DNA of 56,602 nucleotides from Bacteroidaceae bacterium (GTDB lineage Bacteria > Bacteroidota > Bacteroidia > Bacteroidales > Bacteroidaceae). Below, one piece after another: positions 30,532-56,602 of the stretch (position 1 is its first letter; the number at the start of each line of letters is the position of its first letter). The notes under the pieces were generated by a model. It ran no database searches, was not told where the DNA came from, and was given only the letters and a program-made list of their open reading frames with translations. The stretch is from contig JAFZVW010000065.1 in assembly GCA_017617635.1 (NCBI GenBank), positions 1-56,602 on the forward strand. The letters run 5' to 3'. Both the position numbers and the translations under genes were made by a program.

Positions 30532-32502
30532 TTACTCTCCACCTGTTGCCATGATAGTCAGGATGGCTGTAATATCACCGATTTCAATCTTGCCGTTGCC
30601 GTTGGCATCACCTACTATTCCACCACCCATGTTAACACCCTGGATATTGCCGAAATTGTACCACGGAGATGAGTTTTTGTAGTCTTCTAAAGCAGATTTG
30701 GGTACATACAATGTAGCTTCATCGTAAGGAACATACTGGAAGGATGATGACGTTGTTTCAGGAATGCCTTGCGCCTTGCATGTCACGTTGGTAAGTCCTG
30801 TACAGCCATAGAAAGCAGAAGTGCCGATATTGGTCACGCTGCTGGGGATGGTGACAGATTTTATGTTTGAGAAACGATAGAAGGTATATTTTCCAATCTC
30901 TGTAATTCCTTCCGGAATATCCACGTCTGTCACTGCCTTTCCTTCAACATAGAGATACTTATCAATATTTTCGTCATTATTACAGAGGGGATTGGACTGA
31001 GAAGTAAGATACTGAATCCTGCACATACTGGCTATGCTGGCAAAATAAGCCTTGTAAAGTTTTGGGCAATCCAGAAAAGCAAAATTGCCAATACTGGTCA
31101 CGCTTTCGGGAATAGACACGGATTCTAGTATTGTGCAGTTACTGAAGGCATAGTTGCCGATACTGGTAACACCATTTGGAATTGTGATGGATAAAAGAGA
31201 ACTACAGTTAGAGAAGGTATTCGCACTAATCTTGGTCAGACTCTCAGGTAGGGTAACTGAATTCAAATCTTTACAACCAGAAAAAGCTCGGGAGCCAATA
31301 CCAACAACATTGTTTGGTATATCTGCAATTCTCAGCTTTTCACAATTATAGAAGGCATCGTCGCCAATATACCTGAGGCTACTTGGTAAATTAACCTCTA
31401 CGAGATTCGTCCCCCCATAGAAGGCATTGTTGCCAATGCTGGTAACATCGCTGCCAAGGGTAAAGTGCTGTGGGTTATTGAAAATTGTGTTCAAGTTCAA
31501 GCCGGAACTATATGTCTTGGAAACAATGGCGTTGGAATTGATAGTCACATCAGTAAGAGCGCTGCAACCTGAGAAGGCCCCATTGTCAATATTAGTTACA
31601 TTACTGGGGATGGTGATTGAAGACAAAATTGGGCAATTAGAGAAAGTCAGGTTGCCGATAGTCCTCACTCCTGTAGGGATAGATATGGATGAAAGTTGGG
31701 AACAATTATAGAAAGCGTATCTGCCAATACTAATCACACTGTTAGGAATAGTGAATGAAGAAGCAGTGCAACCATAGAAAGCATAGTCGCCAATGTTTTT
31801 CACACTGCTACCAAGGGTGTAATTCTCTACGTTTTTGCCGAAAATAGTAGTGAAGTTGTTGCTGGAACTGTATGTTTTGGAAGCAACCAGATTAGAGTTG
31901 ATTGTTACAGAGGTCAGGCTGGAGCAACCACTAAAGGCCCCATTGCCAATGTTAGCAACATTACTGGGGATAGTTACAGATTTCAAATACATACAGGACC
32001 CAAAAGCATTGGCACCAATACTGGTGACATTGCTGGGAATCGTGATGGATTGCATTTTGCATCCTCTAAAGGCATATTCGCCAATACTGGTTACACTGCT
32101 TGGGATAGTGATGGATTCCAGGCTGGAGCAATTATAGAAAGTATAATCGCCAATGCTCTTTATACTGCTGGGGATTGTAACTGATGTCAGGCCTGTACAT
32201 CCATAGAAAGCATATTCACCAATTTTTGTTACGCTGCTGGGGATTGTAACTGATGTCAGGCCTGTGCAGCCATTAAAGGCATTTGGATTGATACCGACAA
32301 CATCAAATTTTATACTTCCCTTTGTAACTGTAGATGGAATAACTACCGAACCTGAGTAATTTATGCCTTTTGCCACATAAGCAACAGCTGTGTTGCCATC
32401 ATCTGAAAGGCGATTTTCATAACGTATTCCACCATAATCAAAAGTTTCAGCCCATGACAGGGTGCTGATTGCAAGAAAAAATACGGAAACAATAAACCGC
32501 AA
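30532..32502 (-). CDS. BspA-like leucine-rich-repeat surface protein, start interrupted by a C9 tract (phase OFF)
   Basis: The open frame (656 residues from a TTG at 32502) has a hydrophobic signal segment (FIVSVFFLAISTL, then SWA), then about 20 copies of a 23-residue LRR_5 repeat with the core SVTIPSSVTSIGEYAF-GC, and a C-terminal dockerin-like segment GDANGNGKIEIGDITAIL. Such proteins mediate adhesion in oral and gut Bacteroidales. The natural ATG is at 32528-32530, five codons before a run of nine C on the minus strand (32505-32513). With nine C the ATG frame ends at a TGA (32447-32449) after 27 codons. With eight or eleven C it joins the main frame and gives a proper signal peptide beginning MKKQTYPPQLRF. 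The gene is therefore read as switched off in this molecule. Confidence 0.85.
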   Translation of the reverse strand: MRFIVSVFFLAISTLSWAETFDYGGIRYENRLSDDGNTAVAYVAKGINYSGSVVIPSTVTKGSIKFDVVGINPNAFNGCTGLTSVTIPSSVTKIGEYAFYGCTGLTSVTIPSSIKSIGDYTFYNCSSLESITIPSSVTSIGEYAFRGCKMQSITIPSNVTSIGANAFGSCMYLKSVTIPSNVANIGNGAFSGCSSLTSVTINSNLVASKTYSSSNNFTTIFGKNVENYTLGSSVKNIGDYAFYGCTASSFTIPNSVISIGRYAFYNCSQLSSISIPTGVRTIGNLTFSNCPILSSITIPSNVTNIDNGAFSGCSALTDVTINSNAIVSKTYSSGLNLNTIFNNPQHFTLGSDVTSIGNNAFYGGTNLVEVNLPSSLRYIGDDAFYNCEKLRIADIPNNVVGIGSRAFSGCKDLNSVTLPESLTKISANTFSNCSSLLSITIPNGVTSIGNYAFSNCTILESVSIPESVTSIGNFAFLDCPKLYKAYFASIASMCRIQYLTSQSNPLCNNDENIDKYLYVEGKAVTDVDIPEGITEIGKYTFYRFSNIKSVTIPSSVTNIGTSAFYGCTGLTNVTCKAQGIPETTSSSFQYVPYDEATLYVPKSALEDYKNSSPWYNFGNIQGVNMGGGIVGDANGNGKIEIGDITAILTIMATGGE

Positions 32503-32504
32503 CT

Positions 32505-32513
32505 GGGGGGGGG
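32505..32513 (-). repeat. Homopolymer C9 tract (G9 on plus strand) in the BspA-like gene
   Basis: Nine identical bases directly between the ATG (32530) and the signal-peptide codons of the BspA-like gene. A change of one base (to eight) restores the frame. Length changes in such tracts occur by slipped-strand mispairing in known phase-variable genes of other bacteria. Confidence 0.85.
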
Positions 32514-32576
32514 TAAGTTTGTTTTTTCATAAAAATTGGTATTTAGTTTTAATGATAATTGTTACACCTTTTGCGA

Positions 32577-32607
32577 CAAAGATAGTATTTTTTTCAATTG
32601 CACACAA
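32577..32607 (-). promoter_or_regulatory. Promoter of the BspA-like gene
   Basis: On the minus strand TTG (32605-32607), 20 bases, TATCTTTG (32577-32584). Predicted start near 32572, giving a leader of about 40 bases before the ATG at 32530. This supports the ATG, rather than the TTG at 32502, as the real start. Confidence 0.65.
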
Positions 32608-32650
32608 CAAAAACGCGAGAAAAATTGTAACTTTGAACTCGCAAAATATT

Positions 32651-32837
32651 ATTTGCTCACGGAGATGTCATGGAGAAGTCATGCAGATGACTACAAAAAC
32701 TCATGATGGTGTCAGGATGATGTCTAGGTTATCTCTAGGAGATGTCTAGCCTACACCTAGAGAACTCCTAGAGAACTCCTAAAGAACTCCTAAAGAACTC
32801 CATGGGAAATTATAGAGGGACGCCTGGAAAATGCTAG
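32651..32837. repeat. Degenerate 11-bp tandem array, about 17 units
   Basis: From 32651 to 32837 the sequence can be cut into 17 consecutive units of exactly 11 bases with no gap. The centre units are GAGATGTCTAG, CCTACACCTAG, AGAACTCCTAG and AGAACTCCTAA; outer units end TCATG, TCAGG or GCTAG. The last base of the unit is G in 14 of 17, and many units end CTAG or close to it. 11 bp is about one helical turn. It fills the stretch between the cca stop and the promoter of the BspA-like gene, ending about 43 bases upstream of the -33 box. No coding sense is evident. Confidence 0.7.
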
Positions 32838-32876
32838 TTTGGTTTACTGAAAGTAGTTAAGAAGTAAAGTAGACAA

Positions 32877-34355
32877 TTATGCATTGCCCTTCGGGTGGAG
32901 GTTGAGTTTGGCGGCTTCCTGGAGCATGTACTGGAAGGCGGAGTCATGGTCGCCGGGAATCAGTGACTCCCAGATTGCGTCCTTGACTGCCTGTTTCAGG
33001 ATGCCGACTTCGCGGCAGGGCTTCAGGCCGAAGGTCTGCATAATCTCCTCGCCCGTAATGGGGTTCTGCCATGTGCGGTAGTTGTCGCGTGCCTGCAGGT
33101 CGGTGATTTTCTCGCGGACGAGGCGGAAATTGTCCAGGAAACGCTGCTTCTTCTGTGCATTGCGGCTGGTAATGTCTGCCTCGCAAAGTGTCATGAGGTC
33201 GTCGATGTCCTCGCCTGCCTCGAACAGCAGACGGCGTACTGCCGAATCGGTGACCTGGTCGTCTGCAATGGCCTGCGGACGCATGTGCATGGAGACAAGC
33301 TTGGAGACATAGTGCATGCGCTCGTCCATAGGCAGTTTCATACGGCGGAAGAGCGGCTGTATCATCTTCATGCCGATGAAGTTGTGATTGTGGAACGTCC
33401 ACCCTGCCACCGGGTCCCACCGCTTGCTTCTGGGCTTCCCGATATCATGCAGGAGGGCTGCCCACCGGAGCCACAGGTTATCGGACACGCGGGCGACATT
33501 GTCCAGTACCTCGAGAGTGTGATAGAAGTTGTCCTTGTGGGCACGGTCGTTGCGGCTTTCGACACCGCGCATGGCGGCAAGCTCGGGTAGAATGAGTTCG
33601 AGCAGTCCGCAGCGTTCCAGTTCGATGAAACCGATACTGGGAACGGGCGAAAGCATAATCTTGTTGAGTTCGTCGATGATGCGTTCCTGCGATATAATGC
33701 TGATGCGCGAGGCGTTGCGGCACAGGGCTTCCTGTGTCTCGTCCTCGATGCTGAAATTGAGCTGTGTGGCAAAGCGTATGCAGCGCATCATGCGCAGGGG
33801 GTCGTCGCTGAATGTAATATCGGGATCAAGCGGTGTTGCTATGAGCCGGTCCTCCATATCGTCAAGACCGCCGAAACGGTCTGTCAGCTCGCCGAAACGG
33901 TCCTTGTTGAGCTGTACTGCCAGTGCATTGATAGTAAAGTCGCGGCGGTCCAGGTCGTCTGCCAGTGTTCCGTCCTCGACGACCGGCTTGCGGCTGTCAC
34001 GCTGATAGCTTTCGCGGCGTGCACCGACAAACTCGACCTCCTGGCCTTTCCACTTTACCTGAGCAGTGCCGAAATTCCTGAAAACCGAGACGTTTGCTCC
34101 CCTGCCCAACTGCCTGCCCAACTGTCTGGCGAGGGCAATACCGGGATGGTCTGTCTGACCTGCCGCGTCCGACCCGATACCTGCCTTGACTACAACGCAG
34201 TCAATATCCTTGGAAGGGCGTTCGAGGAACAGATCCCTGACATATCCGCCCACCACATAGCATTCCACGCCCATTTCATCGGCAATCTCTCCGATTCTGT
34301 GAAACATGGGCTTGTCCAGCAGCCGTGCAAGGTCGTGGTCGGTCAGGTATCTCAT
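32877..34355 (-). CDS. cca: CCA-adding enzyme / tRNA nucleotidyltransferase with HD domain
   Basis: Adds or repairs the 3' CCA of tRNAs, fitting the tRNA genes without encoded CCA. The 492-residue protein has a class II nucleotidyltransferase head: VGGYVRDLFLERPSKDIDCVV (GG and DxD), RRDFTINALAV and MMRCIRFATQLNF. An HD phosphohydrolase domain follows (HTLEVLDNVAR, LLHDIGKPRS). Its start overlaps the stop of the small lipoprotein gene by four bases, so it is translated from the porU-porV transcript. Confidence 0.93.
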   Translation of the reverse strand: MRYLTDHDLARLLDKPMFHRIGEIADEMGVECYVVGGYVRDLFLERPSKDIDCVVVKAGIGSDAAGQTDHPGIALARQLGRQLGRGANVSVFRNFGTAQVKWKGQEVEFVGARRESYQRDSRKPVVEDGTLADDLDRRDFTINALAVQLNKDRFGELTDRFGGLDDMEDRLIATPLDPDITFSDDPLRMMRCIRFATQLNFSIEDETQEALCRNASRISIISQERIIDELNKIMLSPVPSIGFIELERCGLLELILPELAAMRGVESRNDRAHKDNFYHTLEVLDNVARVSDNLWLRWAALLHDIGKPRSKRWDPVAGWTFHNHNFIGMKMIQPLFRRMKLPMDERMHYVSKLVSMHMRPQAIADDQVTDSAVRRLLFEAGEDIDDLMTLCEADITSRNAQKKQRFLDNFRLVREKITDLQARDNYRTWQNPITGEEIMQTFGLKPCREVGILKQAVKDAIWESLIPGDHDSAFQYMLQEAAKLNLHPKGNA

Positions 34356-43571: not shown

Positions 43572-46500
43572 TTATTTGACCATTACTTTCCTGCCGTTAA
43601 CTATATACAGGCCGCGAACCGGACGGTTTACACGGCGTCCCTGCAGGTCATGGAAGACACTGCCGTCAGCACTTGCCCCGACATCGGATATACCTGTCGG
43701 ATTCTCGACAGTCAGCGTACCGCTGACATAGGTAATCTCGTAGTTCTGTGTCTCTGCTCCGGATATGCGTATCTCGTATGTTCCGGCAGGACTCTCGGGC
43801 GTGGCATCGCACTCAAGCACTGGCTGCTGCAACAGTATGTCATTTATCTTCTCGCTGTTGCGCAGGGTCGAATTGGTAAACTCGAACACCGGATTCTCCT
43901 CACCTACGTTGCGCTTGTATGACTTTGCCGTGAGGGTTAGCGGAGTACGGTTTATCTTCATGACACCGTTCTGCAGTACGACACCAGGTGTTGTAATGGT
44001 GCCTGCTGCCACGACAATGGGATATTCGCCCGCAGGAGACCTCAGCACAGTCTCGCATGACAGAGCAGGAGCACCGTTTACCGGAGCGCCTGTAACCGTA
44101 AATGTGAGTGAGGGATTGTTACGCCCGTACAGACGCTCCAATTCATTGGCGCTGACAACGGGAGTACCGGTGAATTCGGTAATAGACGCACTGCCCCAAG
44201 TAGCATCTGCAGAATAAGCCTGAATCTGCGATGCAGGCACGAAGAGACGTATCTTGTTCATCGTCAGCGACGAACTGGAGGCATCAACCACGTCTGGCGA
44301 CAGCACCGCAATGTATTTCAGTCCAGAGCAGCTGTAGAACGCCTTCTGCCCTATCGTCGCAACATTCTGCGGGATGTATATCGAAGTCAGTGCAGTACAG
44401 CCGCGGAATGACTCGTCGTCTATGCTGGTGAGCGATGTAAAGTAGCGAAGCTCGTCAAAGCTCTTCATACTGGCGGCACTGCGGAAAGTATTGCCAAGCG
44501 ACGTAACCGCTGCTGCTTCCTCCTGGCTTATTTCGCCGTCATCGTCGTCGTCCCATCTGCCAATTGCTATCGATGCCGCATTGGTGTCTGCAAAGTCAAT
44601 GTAATGCAATTTGCCGCGCAACGACCCTATAGCTCCGTCTATTTCCTCCTCGGTGCTCTGGAAGTTGTCATATACTGCCTGCTCGGCTGTTACATCGAAC
44701 GACTTGCTGCGGGCCTTTCCTATCAGTTCCTTCAGATGCTCGGTCTTGTCATAGAATGCCCTGGCGGCATTGACCTCGTCCACACTGATGAATGCCCACT
44801 GGCAGTTAAGCGGACTGCTCTCGTAGTTGATATCCCAGTACAATCCATAGGTATACGTGGTATAATAACTGATGTGACCGATATTCGTTCCCAGATATTC
44901 CCCGTTTGTATAATCTGAATCAGTTTCGGGGACCTGCAGGGTGAAAACTCCTTCCTTGCCGTCGACAGGAGCCAGTTTCCAGTATGTCGACGAGTTTACC
45001 GTACCGTCCACGAAGCATGCCTTTACGCCCTCACCTACCTTTGTGTCAGTACTTAGACGCTTCAGCACCTTGTTGGTACTGTTTCCCGTTTCCTCGGAGT
45101 ACAGGTAGTATGTACCTTCAGGCATCGAGCTGGTGCGCTTCAGCCGGTATATCATGCCCTTGCTGCCCACTACTGCCTGCGTGCCGTATGCCTCGCCGCG
45201 AGTAATGCTTCTCTTCAGTCCCAGGTTGTAGATATAGTACTCGGTATCAGCCTGAGGCTCAGTTGTATATTCTGCAGCTGCCTGTGCACGCATCTCAACT
45301 ATTGTGCCGAAGTCCTTCCACACCTCGGCATTCTCATACAGGGCCTTGGAACCATACGGTACATACAGTGTGGCACTTGCCAGGGCAGATGCTGAGAACA
45401 CGTTACTGCCCATGGCTATCGTTGAGGGATCTGTCACGTATATACGGAATTCCTTTATAGCATTGTCGTTGTAGAAGGCCTTGTCGGCTATGTTGTAGAC
45501 AAGGCTGCCGACAGACACCGTCTCAAGCTTCGTACATCCGTCGAAAGCCTGGGCGGATATTATCCTCAACCTATCCGGCATGGACACATTGCGCAGTGAA
45601 GTACAGCCGCGGAACGCCATCTCAGCCAGCTCCTCCATACCCGTGAAATAGGACAGGTCACTGAGGTCTGTTACATTGGTATTGCCGTAGAACACCGTCT
45701 TGATATCCGATACCGCAGCAGCCTCGGATATACTGATTTCCCCGTCATTGTTTGCGTCGAAGTTTGCAAGTGCAACACTGCGCACCGCCTGGTCGGCAAA
45801 GTCAATCAGCTGCAGTTTGGCACGCATTCTGCGACAGCACTTGAGCAAGTCATCCGTCGAAGCCTCCATATTGTCGTACTTTTCCTGCTCGTATGCAACA
45901 GCTAGCCCCTGGCTATTGCCTGCATCCAGAAGTTTCTTCAATTCCATGGCAGCCTGATAGTTCGCTGCACGGGCCTCGTCATAGGGCACAAGCATCCACT
46001 GACAGTTGAGCGGATAGTCTGCATACACTATGTCGCTATAAATGCCATACGTAGGCGTGGCGGCATTGCTCATGTGCGTTGTCTGTACGCCCAGGAACTG
46101 CGAAGATGAATATCCCGACTGCGTGCTTGGCATCTGCATGGTATAGACATTGTCAGTACCGTCCACCAGCGCCATTTTCCAATAGCCATTGCTCGCGTCA
46201 CTCGTTGCACCGTCCACGAAGCATGCACTTATGCCCATGCCCACCTTGGTGTCAGAGCTTGAACGGAACAGTATGTGCTTGCTGCTGTTGCCAGTGTCGT
46301 CCGAGTACAGGTAATACACATTGGCGGCCATGCCCGATGTACGGCGCAGTTCAAAGCGCATCGGGCTGTCAGTGTCATCCACTATGGCCTGTGTGCCGTA
46401 TGCCTCACCCTTGGTCAGATAGCGGCCCATACCCACGTTGTAGACATAGAACTTAGTATTCAAAGCCAACGGCGAATAGATTCCATGTGCCAAGGTTCGC

Positions 46501-48335
46501 TCTTCCTGAATCCTGCCGAAGTCCTGCCACTGTCCGGCAGTCCTCAGGTAGGCTCCGTTACCCTGCGGAGTGTATAGAGTGACGGCTGAAAGGTCAACAC
46601 CGCCAAACACCGATTCGCCCAGGGTTATCTTCTGCGGTGTCACGCCCGACAGCCTTACCGAGGCCAGTTTAGTACATCCCTGGAAAGCCTGACTGCCTAT
46701 GTACTGGATATTCTGTGACAGTTCAACGGCTGTAAATGCCGCACAGGTATTGAATGTATTGTCCTCGATGCGCGAGACTCCCTGCGGAAGGGTGACGTTT
46801 GGCAATACCTTGCAATTGTAGAAGGCCTCCTCACCAATACCCGTAAGTCCGTCAGGCAGATTCAGCGTCTTCAGCTTCGTACAACCCTTGAACGTCCTCT
46901 TTCCGATGGTTTTCAGGCTCTTGGGCAGCTTCACCTCCTTCAGGCCCGTGCATCCCATGAATGCCTCGTCAGCCAGCCAGGTAAGACCTGTGAAATAGTA
47001 CAGCTCGGTAAACGAGGTTATGGTTGTCTTGCCCTTGAACACCGTTCCTATGTCAGTAACCGCTGCCGCCTCGCCAAACGAGAATACACCGTCGTTGTTT
47101 GTATCCCAGTTGGTCAGGCACAGATTCTTCAGCGTGGTACTGCTGAACGGCAATGCGCGCTCCATGTAATTCTCGGGCTCACAGCCGATGACGGCCTCTG
47201 CACCGTCGCTGTAGCCGCCGCTGCTGCCGCCTACACCCTGCGAACCCGGATTCAGCCTTGTAATCAGGTAATAGCCGTCGCTGCTGCCGCCCCATCCCCA
47301 GTTGATATGGAAACAGCCCTGGTCGTCATATCCGTCGCAGACAAAGGCATGGCCGCCGCTCGAATTGCTTCCTGCCAGATAGAAAGGCCTGCCCTCGGCC
47401 AGTTCCTTGTAAAGCAGGGCATCCCACTCGTCATCCGTGTAGGCATCGGGCTTGTATAAATATTTCACCGAACTGCCATAACCGAAATACTTCTTCATAG
47501 CATTTGCCACCATATACGAAAATGCACCTGAGCCGGAACTGGAGTAGTCCATCTCTACACTCACGCCGCAGTAATGCATCAGCTGTGCAACCGCCAGCTG
47601 CTGTTTGGCAGTGGCACTGCTCGTATAGGTATCCAGCATGTTGTCCCAGTCTATCGGTGACCCGGCAGGAATTCCTTCCACCGCCAGCTTGCCGTAGTCT
47701 GCATGTGCCGTGCGGGTGGAATAGGCAGGCATGTCAGCCTGTGTCTCCGTAACCGATTTCGCACGCTGGTAGTACAGAACCTGTGCCATGGCCGTAGCGA
47801 CACAACCGGTCACACTCTGGCCCAGCGTAAAATACTGCGGGCATTCGTTGTTATATGGCCAAGTCTGGTTCCATTTTGTGGTAAGCATCGGGGCAACCGC
47901 ATTGTGTATAGGGGCATACCTGGGAGCCTTGGCCAGACATTCGGGGTGCTCGCTAATGTACTTCAGTTCATTCTCGTAATTCTCCAGCCACGAGCGCATG
48001 TTGTCAGGCAGATTGTTGTAGTCAAACTCGCCCTCGTCGGTGTATCCCAACACCGGACGCAGCATGTCATCGCCCGTTGCAATCACATAGCCCTGATTGT
48101 CACCGCGGTTGAATACATAGTAGAGTTCCGTTTTCTCCGAACCCTTCTTTGCAATTCGTCGCGGAGACAGCCTTGCACGGTTCACAACGGGAGCCAGCTG
48201 ACGGCTTCCGGATGCCTTTTCCAAGAAACTGACTGCACGCTGGCGTGCCTGCTCTCGGGTAATTGGCTCAGCGTTGAGCATGAGCGCCACCATCATGCAT
48301 ACGAGCATGAAAAAAGATTTTCTGAGACTGAACAT
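43572..48335 (-). CDS. C10 (streptopain-type) cysteine protease with LRR/EF-like repeats, MBG domains and T9SS-like tail
   Basis: A 1587-residue secreted protein. Order of parts: signal peptide (1-22); Spi-type propeptide (about 23-125); C10 peptidase with Cys178 in SVTGCVATAMAQV and His329 in SSGGHAFVCDGY, plus HINWGWGG; then three calcium-loop/LRR_5 units starting near residues 410, 860 and 1260 (D-x-N-x-DG-x-x-S-x-x-EAAAV). Between them lie two copies of a ~190-residue beta module (GEAYGTQA near 645 and 1048), each followed by a helical hairpin. MBG-type domains follow (about 1405-1540). The tail (HDLQGRRV, GLYIVNGRKVMVK) looks like a type A T9SS sorting signal. PorU and PorV are nearby in the window. 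It probably degrades host or dietary protein at the surface; targets are unknown. Confidence 0.9.
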   Translation of the reverse strand: MFSLRKSFFMLVCMMVALMLNAEPITREQARQRAVSFLEKASGSRQLAPVVNRARLSPRRIAKKGSEKTELYYVFNRGDNQGYVIATGDDMLRPVLGYTDEGEFDYNNLPDNMRSWLENYENELKYISEHPECLAKAPRYAPIHNAVAPMLTTKWNQTWPYNNECPQYFTLGQSVTGCVATAMAQVLYYQRAKSVTETQADMPAYSTRTAHADYGKLAVEGIPAGSPIDWDNMLDTYTSSATAKQQLAVAQLMHYCGVSVEMDYSSSGSGAFSYMVANAMKKYFGYGSSVKYLYKPDAYTDDEWDALLYKELAEGRPFYLAGSNSSGGHAFVCDGYDDQGCFHINWGWGGSSDGYYLITRLNPGSQGVGGSSGGYSDGAEAVIGCEPENYMERALPFSSTTLKNLCLTNWDTNNDGVFSFGEAAAVTDIGTVFKGKTTITSFTELYYFTGLTWLADEAFMGCTGLKEVKLPKSLKTIGKRTFKGCTKLKTLNLPDGLTGIGEEAFYNCKVLPNVTLPQGVSRIEDNTFNTCAAFTAVELSQNIQYIGSQAFQGCTKLASVRLSGVTPQKITLGESVFGGVDLSAVTLYTPQGNGAYLRTAGQWQDFGRIQEERTLAHGIYSPLALNTKFYVYNVGMGRYLTKGEAYGTQAIVDDTDSPMRFELRRTSGMAANVYYLYSDDTGNSSKHILFRSSSDTKVGMGISACFVDGATSDASNGYWKMALVDGTDNVYTMQMPSTQSGYSSSQFLGVQTTHMSNAATPTYGIYSDIVYADYPLNCQWMLVPYDEARAANYQAAMELKKLLDAGNSQGLAVAYEQEKYDNMEASTDDLLKCCRRMRAKLQLIDFADQAVRSVALANFDANNDGEISISEAAAVSDIKTVFYGNTNVTDLSDLSYFTGMEELAEMAFRGCTSLRNVSMPDRLRIISAQAFDGCTKLETVSVGSLVYNIADKAFYNDNAIKEFRIYVTDPSTIAMGSNVFSASALASATLYVPYGSKALYENAEVWKDFGTIVEMRAQAAAEYTTEPQADTEYYIYNLGLKRSITRGEAYGTQAVVGSKGMIYRLKRTSSMPEGTYYLYSEETGNSTNKVLKRLSTDTKVGEGVKACFVDGTVNSSTYWKLAPVDGKEGVFTLQVPETDSDYTNGEYLGTNIGHISYYTTYTYGLYWDINYESSPLNCQWAFISVDEVNAARAFYDKTEHLKELIGKARSKSFDVTAEQAVYDNFQSTEEEIDGAIGSLRGKLHYIDFADTNAASIAIGRWDDDDDGEISQEEAAAVTSLGNTFRSAASMKSFDELRYFTSLTSIDDESFRGCTALTSIYIPQNVATIGQKAFYSCSGLKYIAVLSPDVVDASSSSLTMNKIRLFVPASQIQAYSADATWGSASITEFTGTPVVSANELERLYGRNNPSLTFTVTGAPVNGAPALSCETVLRSPAGEYPIVVAAGTITTPGVVLQNGVMKINRTPLTLTAKSYKRNVGEENPVFEFTNSTLRNSEKINDILLQQPVLECDATPESPAGTYEIRISGAETQNYEITYVSGTLTVENPTGISDVGASADGSVFHDLQGRRVNRPVRGLYIVNGRKVMVK

Positions 48336-55649: not shown

Positions 55650-55654
55650 CATCG

Positions 55655-55723
55655 TGTTTTTCATGGTATTAGATTTAAGGTTAACTAAAGATTGGTTGTC
55701 GTGAGACAACCTTCTTTTTTTTT
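55655..55723 (+). ncRNA. Short promoter-to-terminator transcript (small RNA)
   Basis: A transcript of roughly 70 bases is defined by the promoter (55620-55649) and a terminator (55694-55723). Its middle carries TTTAAGGTTAACTAAAGATT. AAGGTT (55677-55682) can pair with AACCTT (55708-55713), competing with the terminator stem, so two folds are possible. No convincing ORF is inside. The layout resembles the Bacteroidales-1 RNA motif, described as bounded by such a promoter and terminators; I cannot confirm membership without a covariance-model search. Confidence 0.55.
55694..55723 (+). terminator. Rho-independent terminator of the short transcript
   Basis: GGTTGTC (55694-55700), a GTGA tetraloop, GACAACC (55705-55711), then TTC and ten or more T up to 55723. 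A perfect 7-bp stem with a GNRA loop; one of the strongest terminators in the window. Confidence 0.88.
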
Positions 55724-55803
55724 ACGCACCTTTCCCATAGTGATGCCATACTGTCCGGAAGAGTAGGATTGTCTGGACTATTTCATAAATATTTGCAGTA
55801 AGG

Positions 55804-55834: not shown

Positions 55835-55871
55835 CATCGTAAAACAATAAAAAGCAATATGTACAAAACTA

Positions 55872-55880
55872 CCCCCCCCC
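55872..55880 (+). repeat. Homopolymer C9 tract in the leader ORF
   Basis: Nine C in a row five codons after the leader ATG. It has the same length and a similar upstream context (AAAACTA here, AAACTTA at the BspA-like gene) as the tract at 32505-32513. Confidence 0.8.
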
Positions 55881-55904
55881 GGAATTCGTAAAGATTTCTG
55901 TTAT

Positions 55905-55969
55905 CGCGCATTGGCGCGGAATGCTATATACGGCACGCTGTGACTCTGGAAACGGAGCGCGGTGTGCCG
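55905..55969 (+). promoter_or_regulatory. Two hairpins in the leader (possible attenuator)
   Basis: First hairpin: CGCGC-ATTG-GCGCG (55905-55918). Second: outer stem CGGCAC (55931-55936) with GTGCCG (55964-55969) and an inner CTC/GAG pairing, followed by CTTTTC. The second has the shape of a weak terminator. Both lie inside the long version of the leader ORF, so ribosomes reading it would open them. Confidence 0.5.
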
Positions 55970-56008
55970 CTTTTCGTATGTATAAACAATTAAAATCAAA
56001 ATAACTGT

Positions 56009-56602
56009 ATGAAAAAACTATTTACACTTTTGCTCCTTGTCTGCGGAATGTCGACAGGAGGGTGGGCTCTTGAACAGGACGGCGAGGGCTACTATCTTCT
56101 CAGCTCCGTGCAAGACTGGCAGGACTTCGCCACACTTGTTCAGACCACACCTACGGCTAATGCCCGCATGACGGCAGACATTGACCTCGGCGACGACCAG
56201 ACGAAGATAGGCGATTATGATGTTGCTTACGCCTATCAGGGAGTCTTTGACGGACAAGGACATACGCTTAATGTCAACTATTATTCAACGTCCTCAACTG
56301 TTGCAGAAGGTTATACTATCGCTCCGTTCCGAAATATTAAGGGGGCTACCATCAAGAACCTTACTGTGACAGGCTCCATTACGGGTTATAGGCACCCTGC
56401 CGGTGTTGTCGGTTATACTGTTAGCCCAAGCACTAACTTAATAAGCAATGTGACAGTTTCTGCGACAATTAACATGGTAGACTCGCATGGAGGTGGTTTT
56501 GTTGGACATTGTGATAAATCAACCACGACAATACAGGATTGTTTGTTTAATGGTACTATCAATGGTAAAGCTGGTGGAAGCACAGTTGGCGTCTTCTTCG
56601 GA
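56009..56602 (+). CDS. GLUG-motif surface protein, 5' part (runs off the window)
   Basis: The frame is open from the ATG at 56009 to the last base (198 codons, no stop). It begins with a signal peptide (KKLFTLLLLVCGMSTGGWA). Then comes YYLLSSVQDWQDFATLV and the pattern of GLUG-type surface proteins: ARMTADIDLGDD, GVFDGQGHTLNV, IKNLTVTGSIT, GGGFVGH. These form a beta-solenoid found in large exported adhesins or glycan-active proteins of Bacteroidetes. The C-terminus and any sorting signal lie outside. It is preceded by the C9 leader described above, which probably controls it. Confidence 0.85.
   Translation, partial: MKKLFTLLLLVCGMSTGGWALEQDGEGYYLLSSVQDWQDFATLVQTTPTANARMTADIDLGDDQTKIGDYDVAYAYQGVFDGQGHTLNVNYYSTSSTVAEGYTIAPFRNIKGATIKNLTVTGSITGYRHPAGVVGYTVSPSTNLISNVTVSATINMVDSHGGGFVGHCDKSTTTIQDCLFNGTINGKAGGSTVGVFFG

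Follow-up and report, generated by a model that had tools for sequence, protein, structure and literature searches.

In Candidatus Mycoplasma girerdii, CA dinucleotide repeats switch BspA-like genes; length variants are counted in reads there and the commonest state is often predicted to be off (PMC5476646). Homopolymeric contingency loci are known from Neisseria, Campylobacter, Helicobacter and others, as outlined in a review on phase variation (PMC11868660), and poly-C/poly-G tracts occur in methylase genes (PMC3711429). Where the consulted part of the review treats Bacteroides, it does so under inversions and older phase shifts (PMC11868660). Our search of the open-access literature found no report of homopolymer switching in Bacteroidales. 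Surface switching in this order has been described mainly via DNA inversion. Here we describe a locus in a 56,602-nucleotide window (the whole stretch of DNA analysed) from a Bacteroidaceae bacterium, in which a run of nine C is probably the contingency tract of a BspA-like leucine-rich repeat (LRR) surface protein, with slippage moving an upstream ATG into and out of phase. The CA-repeat BspA genes of Candidatus Mycoplasma girerdii are the closest known case: repeat length switches BspA-like LRR surface proteins there and would do so here, and the state assembled in the window is likewise a predicted off state (PMC5476646). Unlike that case, which lies in another phylum and involves a dinucleotide repeat with read-counted variants, the tract here is poly-C, sits inside the start of a signal peptide, and is known from assemblies. 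As in the loci of Neisseria, Campylobacter and Helicobacter, a single-base run in the 5' coding part would set the frame of surface or methylase genes; here, in contrast, the host belongs to the Bacteroidaceae and we infer slippage from sequence.

The locus is read from the minus strand. An ATG at 32530-32528 opens a short frame (32447..32530) that passes through the C9 tract (32505..32513), which is directly preceded by TA and begins 17 bases past the first base of the ATG, and that ends after 27 codons at a TGA (32449-32447). The main frame (30532..32502; 656 codons plus a stop at 30532-30534) is listed from a TTG at 32502, which directly follows the tract. It is closed upstream by a TGA at 32529-32527 with no ATG in between, and its earliest ATG codon comes about 150 codons past the tract. 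The two frames meet at the C9 tract without sharing a phase, so that gain or loss of one C there would change the frame read from the ATG. Recounting the codons upheld the frame arithmetic of the original prediction, in which nine C puts the ATG out of phase with a main frame that has no start ATG. The 47 bases that it gave between promoter-like boxes and the ATG are also correct. Directly after the tract and beside the TTG, the main frame encodes a putative signal-peptide core (LRFIVSVFFLAISTLSWA, 32449..32502), judged by eye and by hydropathy (best 10-residue mean 3.1), whose hydrophobic stretch ends in SWA; the charged start of this signal peptide depends on the phase of the ATG or on the TTG.

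In the proposed mechanism, translation would begin at ATG 32530 on a transcript started about 40 bases further upstream. Its first codons would supply the positively charged start of the signal peptide, followed by the tract and then by the hydrophobic core in the main frame. Slippage by a number of bases that is not a multiple of three would change whether the ATG is in phase with the 656-codon frame, presumably reversibly. At the assembled length a 27-residue peptide would be all that the ATG yields, leaving the surface protein off, save for leak through TTG initiation or ribosomal slippage.

The promoter-like boxes (32577..32607, minus strand) were identified by sequence and consist of a TTG at 32607-32605, a 20-base spacer, and TATCTTTG at 32584-32577. 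We take this TTG-N20-TATCTTTG arrangement to be a putative Bacteroidales-type promoter. The box TTTGTCGCA recurs before a homologue in a second genome of the genus (G053) and before a gene in a third (G001). A repeat search also returned 11-base direct repeats and imperfect inverted repeats at 32723..32781, upstream of the promoter. Within 32380-32900 no inverted repeats flank the promoter, and the two inverted pairs present both fall within 32723-32781. Because neither pair brackets the promoter, DNA inversion by an invertible promoter was rejected, which favours the homopolymer mechanism originally predicted. The locus would share with the invertible promoters of Bacteroides, members of the same order, a random on/off control of surface features (PMC11868660); those promoters, however, need inverted repeats around them, whereas here the repeats lie upstream.

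The main-frame protein matches LRR_5 (PF13306) repeats in Pfam with 554 bits over six stretches, identifying a BspA-type LRR protein with a predicted surface and possibly adhesive role. By eye, its C-terminus (GDANGNGKIEIGDITAIL, 30532-30620, minus strand) resembles a dockerin-type repeat, with no Pfam match there. Elsewhere in the window, a 1587-residue frame (43572-48335, minus strand) carries an LRR stretch 39% identical to the BspA protein, and in several relatives similar matches fall in frames of about 1590 residues.

Our comparison material comprised one genome per species. Among 139 genomes of the genus, a query around the start of the gene returned one clear DNA homologue, in G053 (69% identity over 28-241 of 241); the nine other matches, including that of the window's own genome (G000), were the query locus itself or short matches near the promoter. 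The G053 gene retains the promoter box, the ATG, the tract and the signal core, with eight C in place of nine and with an ATG-to-main-frame phase of 2, against 1 in the window. A TTG is found there too, four codons past the tract and before the signal core. The near flanks of the two tracts have diverged (14/30 and 10/30 bases equal). Over 573 aligned codons, 292 residues are common to the two proteins and dN/dS is about 0.34; in the first 55 of these codons it reaches about 0.47. This ratio indicates purifying selection on the main frame, even though the assembled ATG is in phase with it neither in the window nor in G053. The original prediction had proposed searching relatives of the strain for lengths that place the ATG in phase; this yielded the G053 locus with another length and phase, itself out of phase. 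The nearest named relative, RUG795 (L096), carries no BspA gene at the corresponding place: its CCA enzyme is 93% identical, and a different gene follows the CCA gene, so that neighbour synteny offers no allele there.

Other BspA genes extend the comparison. A further tract-bearing gene, in G001 (LRR_5, 217 bits), has nine C and is out of phase, and its alternative starts are limited to GTG and TTG codons inside the hydrophobic core. None of the three tract-bearing BspA genes found in the window's own genus (G000, G053 and G001) is therefore in phase. In a sister genus, two BspA-like genes (G503 and G454; LRR_5, 44 and 47 bits) have a C8 tract in phase with the ATG before it; the two are homologous and equal in tract length, and show no length change between them. 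Three close homologues (G461:C18, G461:C38 and G503:C46) have an ordinary ATG as their start, and the two G461 homologues instead have tracts of C11 and C13 in their leaders. Among the paralogue starts listed, a tract was seen in the G053 gene alone, and the arrangement is therefore the minority one.

How far such runs exceed chance depends on what is counted. In the window's own genome (2.05 Mb in 65 contigs, 85% complete), no run of C or G exceeds nine bases and five reach that length. Under a first-order Markov model about 6.4 runs of this length or longer would be expected; the decay of shorter runs extrapolates to about 0.7. Since the first-order model expects as many C9 runs, the count alone proves nothing, and we dropped an excess of such runs as an argument. 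TA precedes all five nine-base runs of the genome, compared with 85 of the 909 C-runs of at least three in the window, and four of the five C9 runs are non-coding. TAC8 occurs 125 times in 31 genomes of the genus against 69 for a reversed control. Across 399 genomes of the family, ATGAARAR-N(3-14)-TAC7 gave 16 rows against 2 reversed, and ATGA-N(4-16)-TAC8 gave 109 against 33; a similar pattern in 45 genomes of the sister genus gave 27 against 10 (the last two controls summed by hand). The reversed pattern controls for composition only. It is the position of the window tract and its presence in homologues, not the number of C9 runs, that raise it above chance.

We then considered N-terminal tracts in other genes of the family. 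In two of the tract sets examined, 5 of 90 and 3 of 93 open tracts were left out, and in two sets with 166 distinct contexts every locus was read. An ATG frame stays open through 172 distinct tracts, giving 39 ORFs of at least 150 codons. Hand sorting kept 17 of these as N-terminal coding tracts and dropped 22, because the main frame was open far upstream (making the tract internal), had its own ATG, encoded nothing recognised, or was a housekeeping gene. Eleven of the 17 are out of phase: LRR_5 genes (G000, G053, G001); Acyl_transf_3 genes with an N-terminal C-tract in three genera (G150, G197 and G442; L280, L379, L497); a C5 cytosine DNA methylase with a C8 tract (L443, G479:C139); a CotH gene (G462); a hexapeptide transferase (G094); and two genes that lack a Pfam match, a lipoprotein-like frame (G298) and a membrane or secreted frame (G215). 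The methylase gene has no other ATG, GTG or TTG near the tract. The six in phase encode LRR_5 proteins (G503, G454), a DUF2264 protein (G472), a sulfatase (G430), a polysaccharide-synthesis protein (G439) and a secreted protein without a Pfam match (G510). Weaker members of the 17 are those of G094 (its own ATG 14 codons past the tract), G439 (a later ATG), G298 (open 74 codons upstream, with a GTG) and G150 (seven C only).

Six of 17 in phase equals the random third that an unrelated ATG would give, and this split was dropped as proof. Among the dropped rows, argininosuccinate synthase in G015 has an in-phase tract near its start, and an in-phase tract therefore need not mean a switch; another, at G081:C39, holds an out-of-phase frame resembling a response regulator. 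The absence of an alternative start and a signal or domain starting at the tract are better evidence than the phase split. The classes of the 17 sorted genes are typical of contingency loci, whose usual cargo consists of surface proteins, surface-structure modifiers and restriction-modification genes (PMC11868660).

Tract lengths were compared between near-identical loci, using 273 contexts of C7 or more and pairs at least 88% identical over at least 190 bases, with two same-locus pairs left out. Nine pairs resulted: four differ in the number of C, and five are equal, three of these within one trio. L444 and L451, intergenic loci of two species, are 99% identical over 410 bases with near flanks equal at 30/30 and 29/30 bases, and carry C9 and C10. 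The three other differing pairs (L454/L462, C8 and C9; L298/L306, C11 and C13; L322/L323, C9 and C8) each have one diverged near flank. A tract of this kind can thus apparently change while its flanks stay, on the evidence of the single pair L444/L451, where an assembly error is possible.

C-tracts also occur in non-coding leaders. The second C9 of the window (55872-55880, plus strand) lies in the 5' leader (55859-56010) of a secreted-protein gene, 13 bases past an ATG that opens a frame of 10 codons, and a GC-rich hairpin followed by a T-run separates it from the gene. The leader is repeated in the same genome, at 95% at G000:C65 and as shorter pieces at C35 and C47. Leaders with a tract and a hairpin, C8 to C15, precede other secreted proteins in the sister genus (L377, L382, L391, L405, L406). 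An Rfam search of ten loci assigned no family to the tract leaders. Just upstream of the window leader it matched the Bacteroidetes sRNA family FopS (55654-55724, plus strand; RF04319, 84.5 bits, gathering 56), with two weaker overlapping sRNA matches beside the same leader; with no family assigned to the leaders themselves, a known RNA element was rejected as their explanation. At two further loci, a non-coding C9 (L001, G000:C1:49220-49228) lies directly upstream of a promoter-like region, its boxes judged by eye, and a TAC8 tract with a G12 run (L276, G152:C41) lies beside repeats that by eye resemble a CRISPR array.

In the main rival to the switch, initiation at TTG 32502 produces the protein, with a short signal peptide, at every tract length, and the ATG and tract are only a 5' leader. 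The TTG stands in the main frame beside the signal core, its counterpart in G053 likewise precedes the core, and other C-tracts of G000 lie in non-coding leaders. A signal peptide begun at the TTG, however, would open with a minimal charged segment. In paralogues of the genus the leucine at this position is retained, yet they start at an ATG 8-9 codons upstream, which weakens conservation of the TTG as a start signal. Also against this rival, the G001 gene lacks a start codon ahead of its core, the G479 methylase gene has no alternative start near its tract, and G503 and G454 have an in-phase ATG ahead of the tract. We consider a TTG start unlikely. A programmed frame change, in which slippage of ribosomes or RNA polymerase along the C-run would yield a constant fraction of full-length protein, is less likely still, at a low probability. 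Proline-codon runs favour +1 slippage, and the main frame is +1 to the ATG in G000, G001, G150, G197, G442, G215, G462 and G094, but the genes of G053, G479 and G298 need the opposite shift and six genes need none. With shifts mixed in this way no single programmed shift fits, and a programmed +1 frameshift was rejected. Least probable of all is a decayed gene or a base-count error. The G000 assembly consists of 65 contigs and is 85% complete, and homopolymers are error-prone in some sequencing methods, which could also account for the C9/C10 pair. Against this stand 656 stop-free codons with low dN/dS, the intact long ORFs neighbouring the BspA-type gene, and the recurrence of out-of-phase tract genes in separate genomes.

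A slippage switch is the reading that we consider probable. The claim that a one-base slip switches the protein gains from the promoter, ATG and tract ahead of a signal-bearing frame that lacks an ATG, from the other length and phase in G053, from the in-phase layout in the sister genus, and from the one-C difference between L444 and L451. It loses in that the TTG could start the protein at any tract length, that none of the three tract-bearing BspA genes of the genus is in phase, and that C9 runs do not outnumber a simple model.

For the family, we hold as evenly balanced a broader proposal: that Bacteroidaceae of gut and rumen may possess an overlooked poly-C phasome, with TA-C(7-10) between the ATG and the gene body. 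Its genes would encode BspA-like proteins, O-acyltransferases, a C5 DNA methylase, and CotH-like and other secreted proteins, with leader tracts reaching C15, and it would add to DNA inversion a second layer of surface switching that works by slippage. If this is true, the targets of poly-C switching in these bacteria would include surface proteins, glycan acyltransferases and a DNA methylase, and genes that seem to lack a start or to be damaged may just be in an off state. Existing metagenome reads could then be screened directly for poly-C switching, and work on phage, immunity and colonisation in gut and rumen Bacteroidaceae would need to allow for a second cause of variation between cells.
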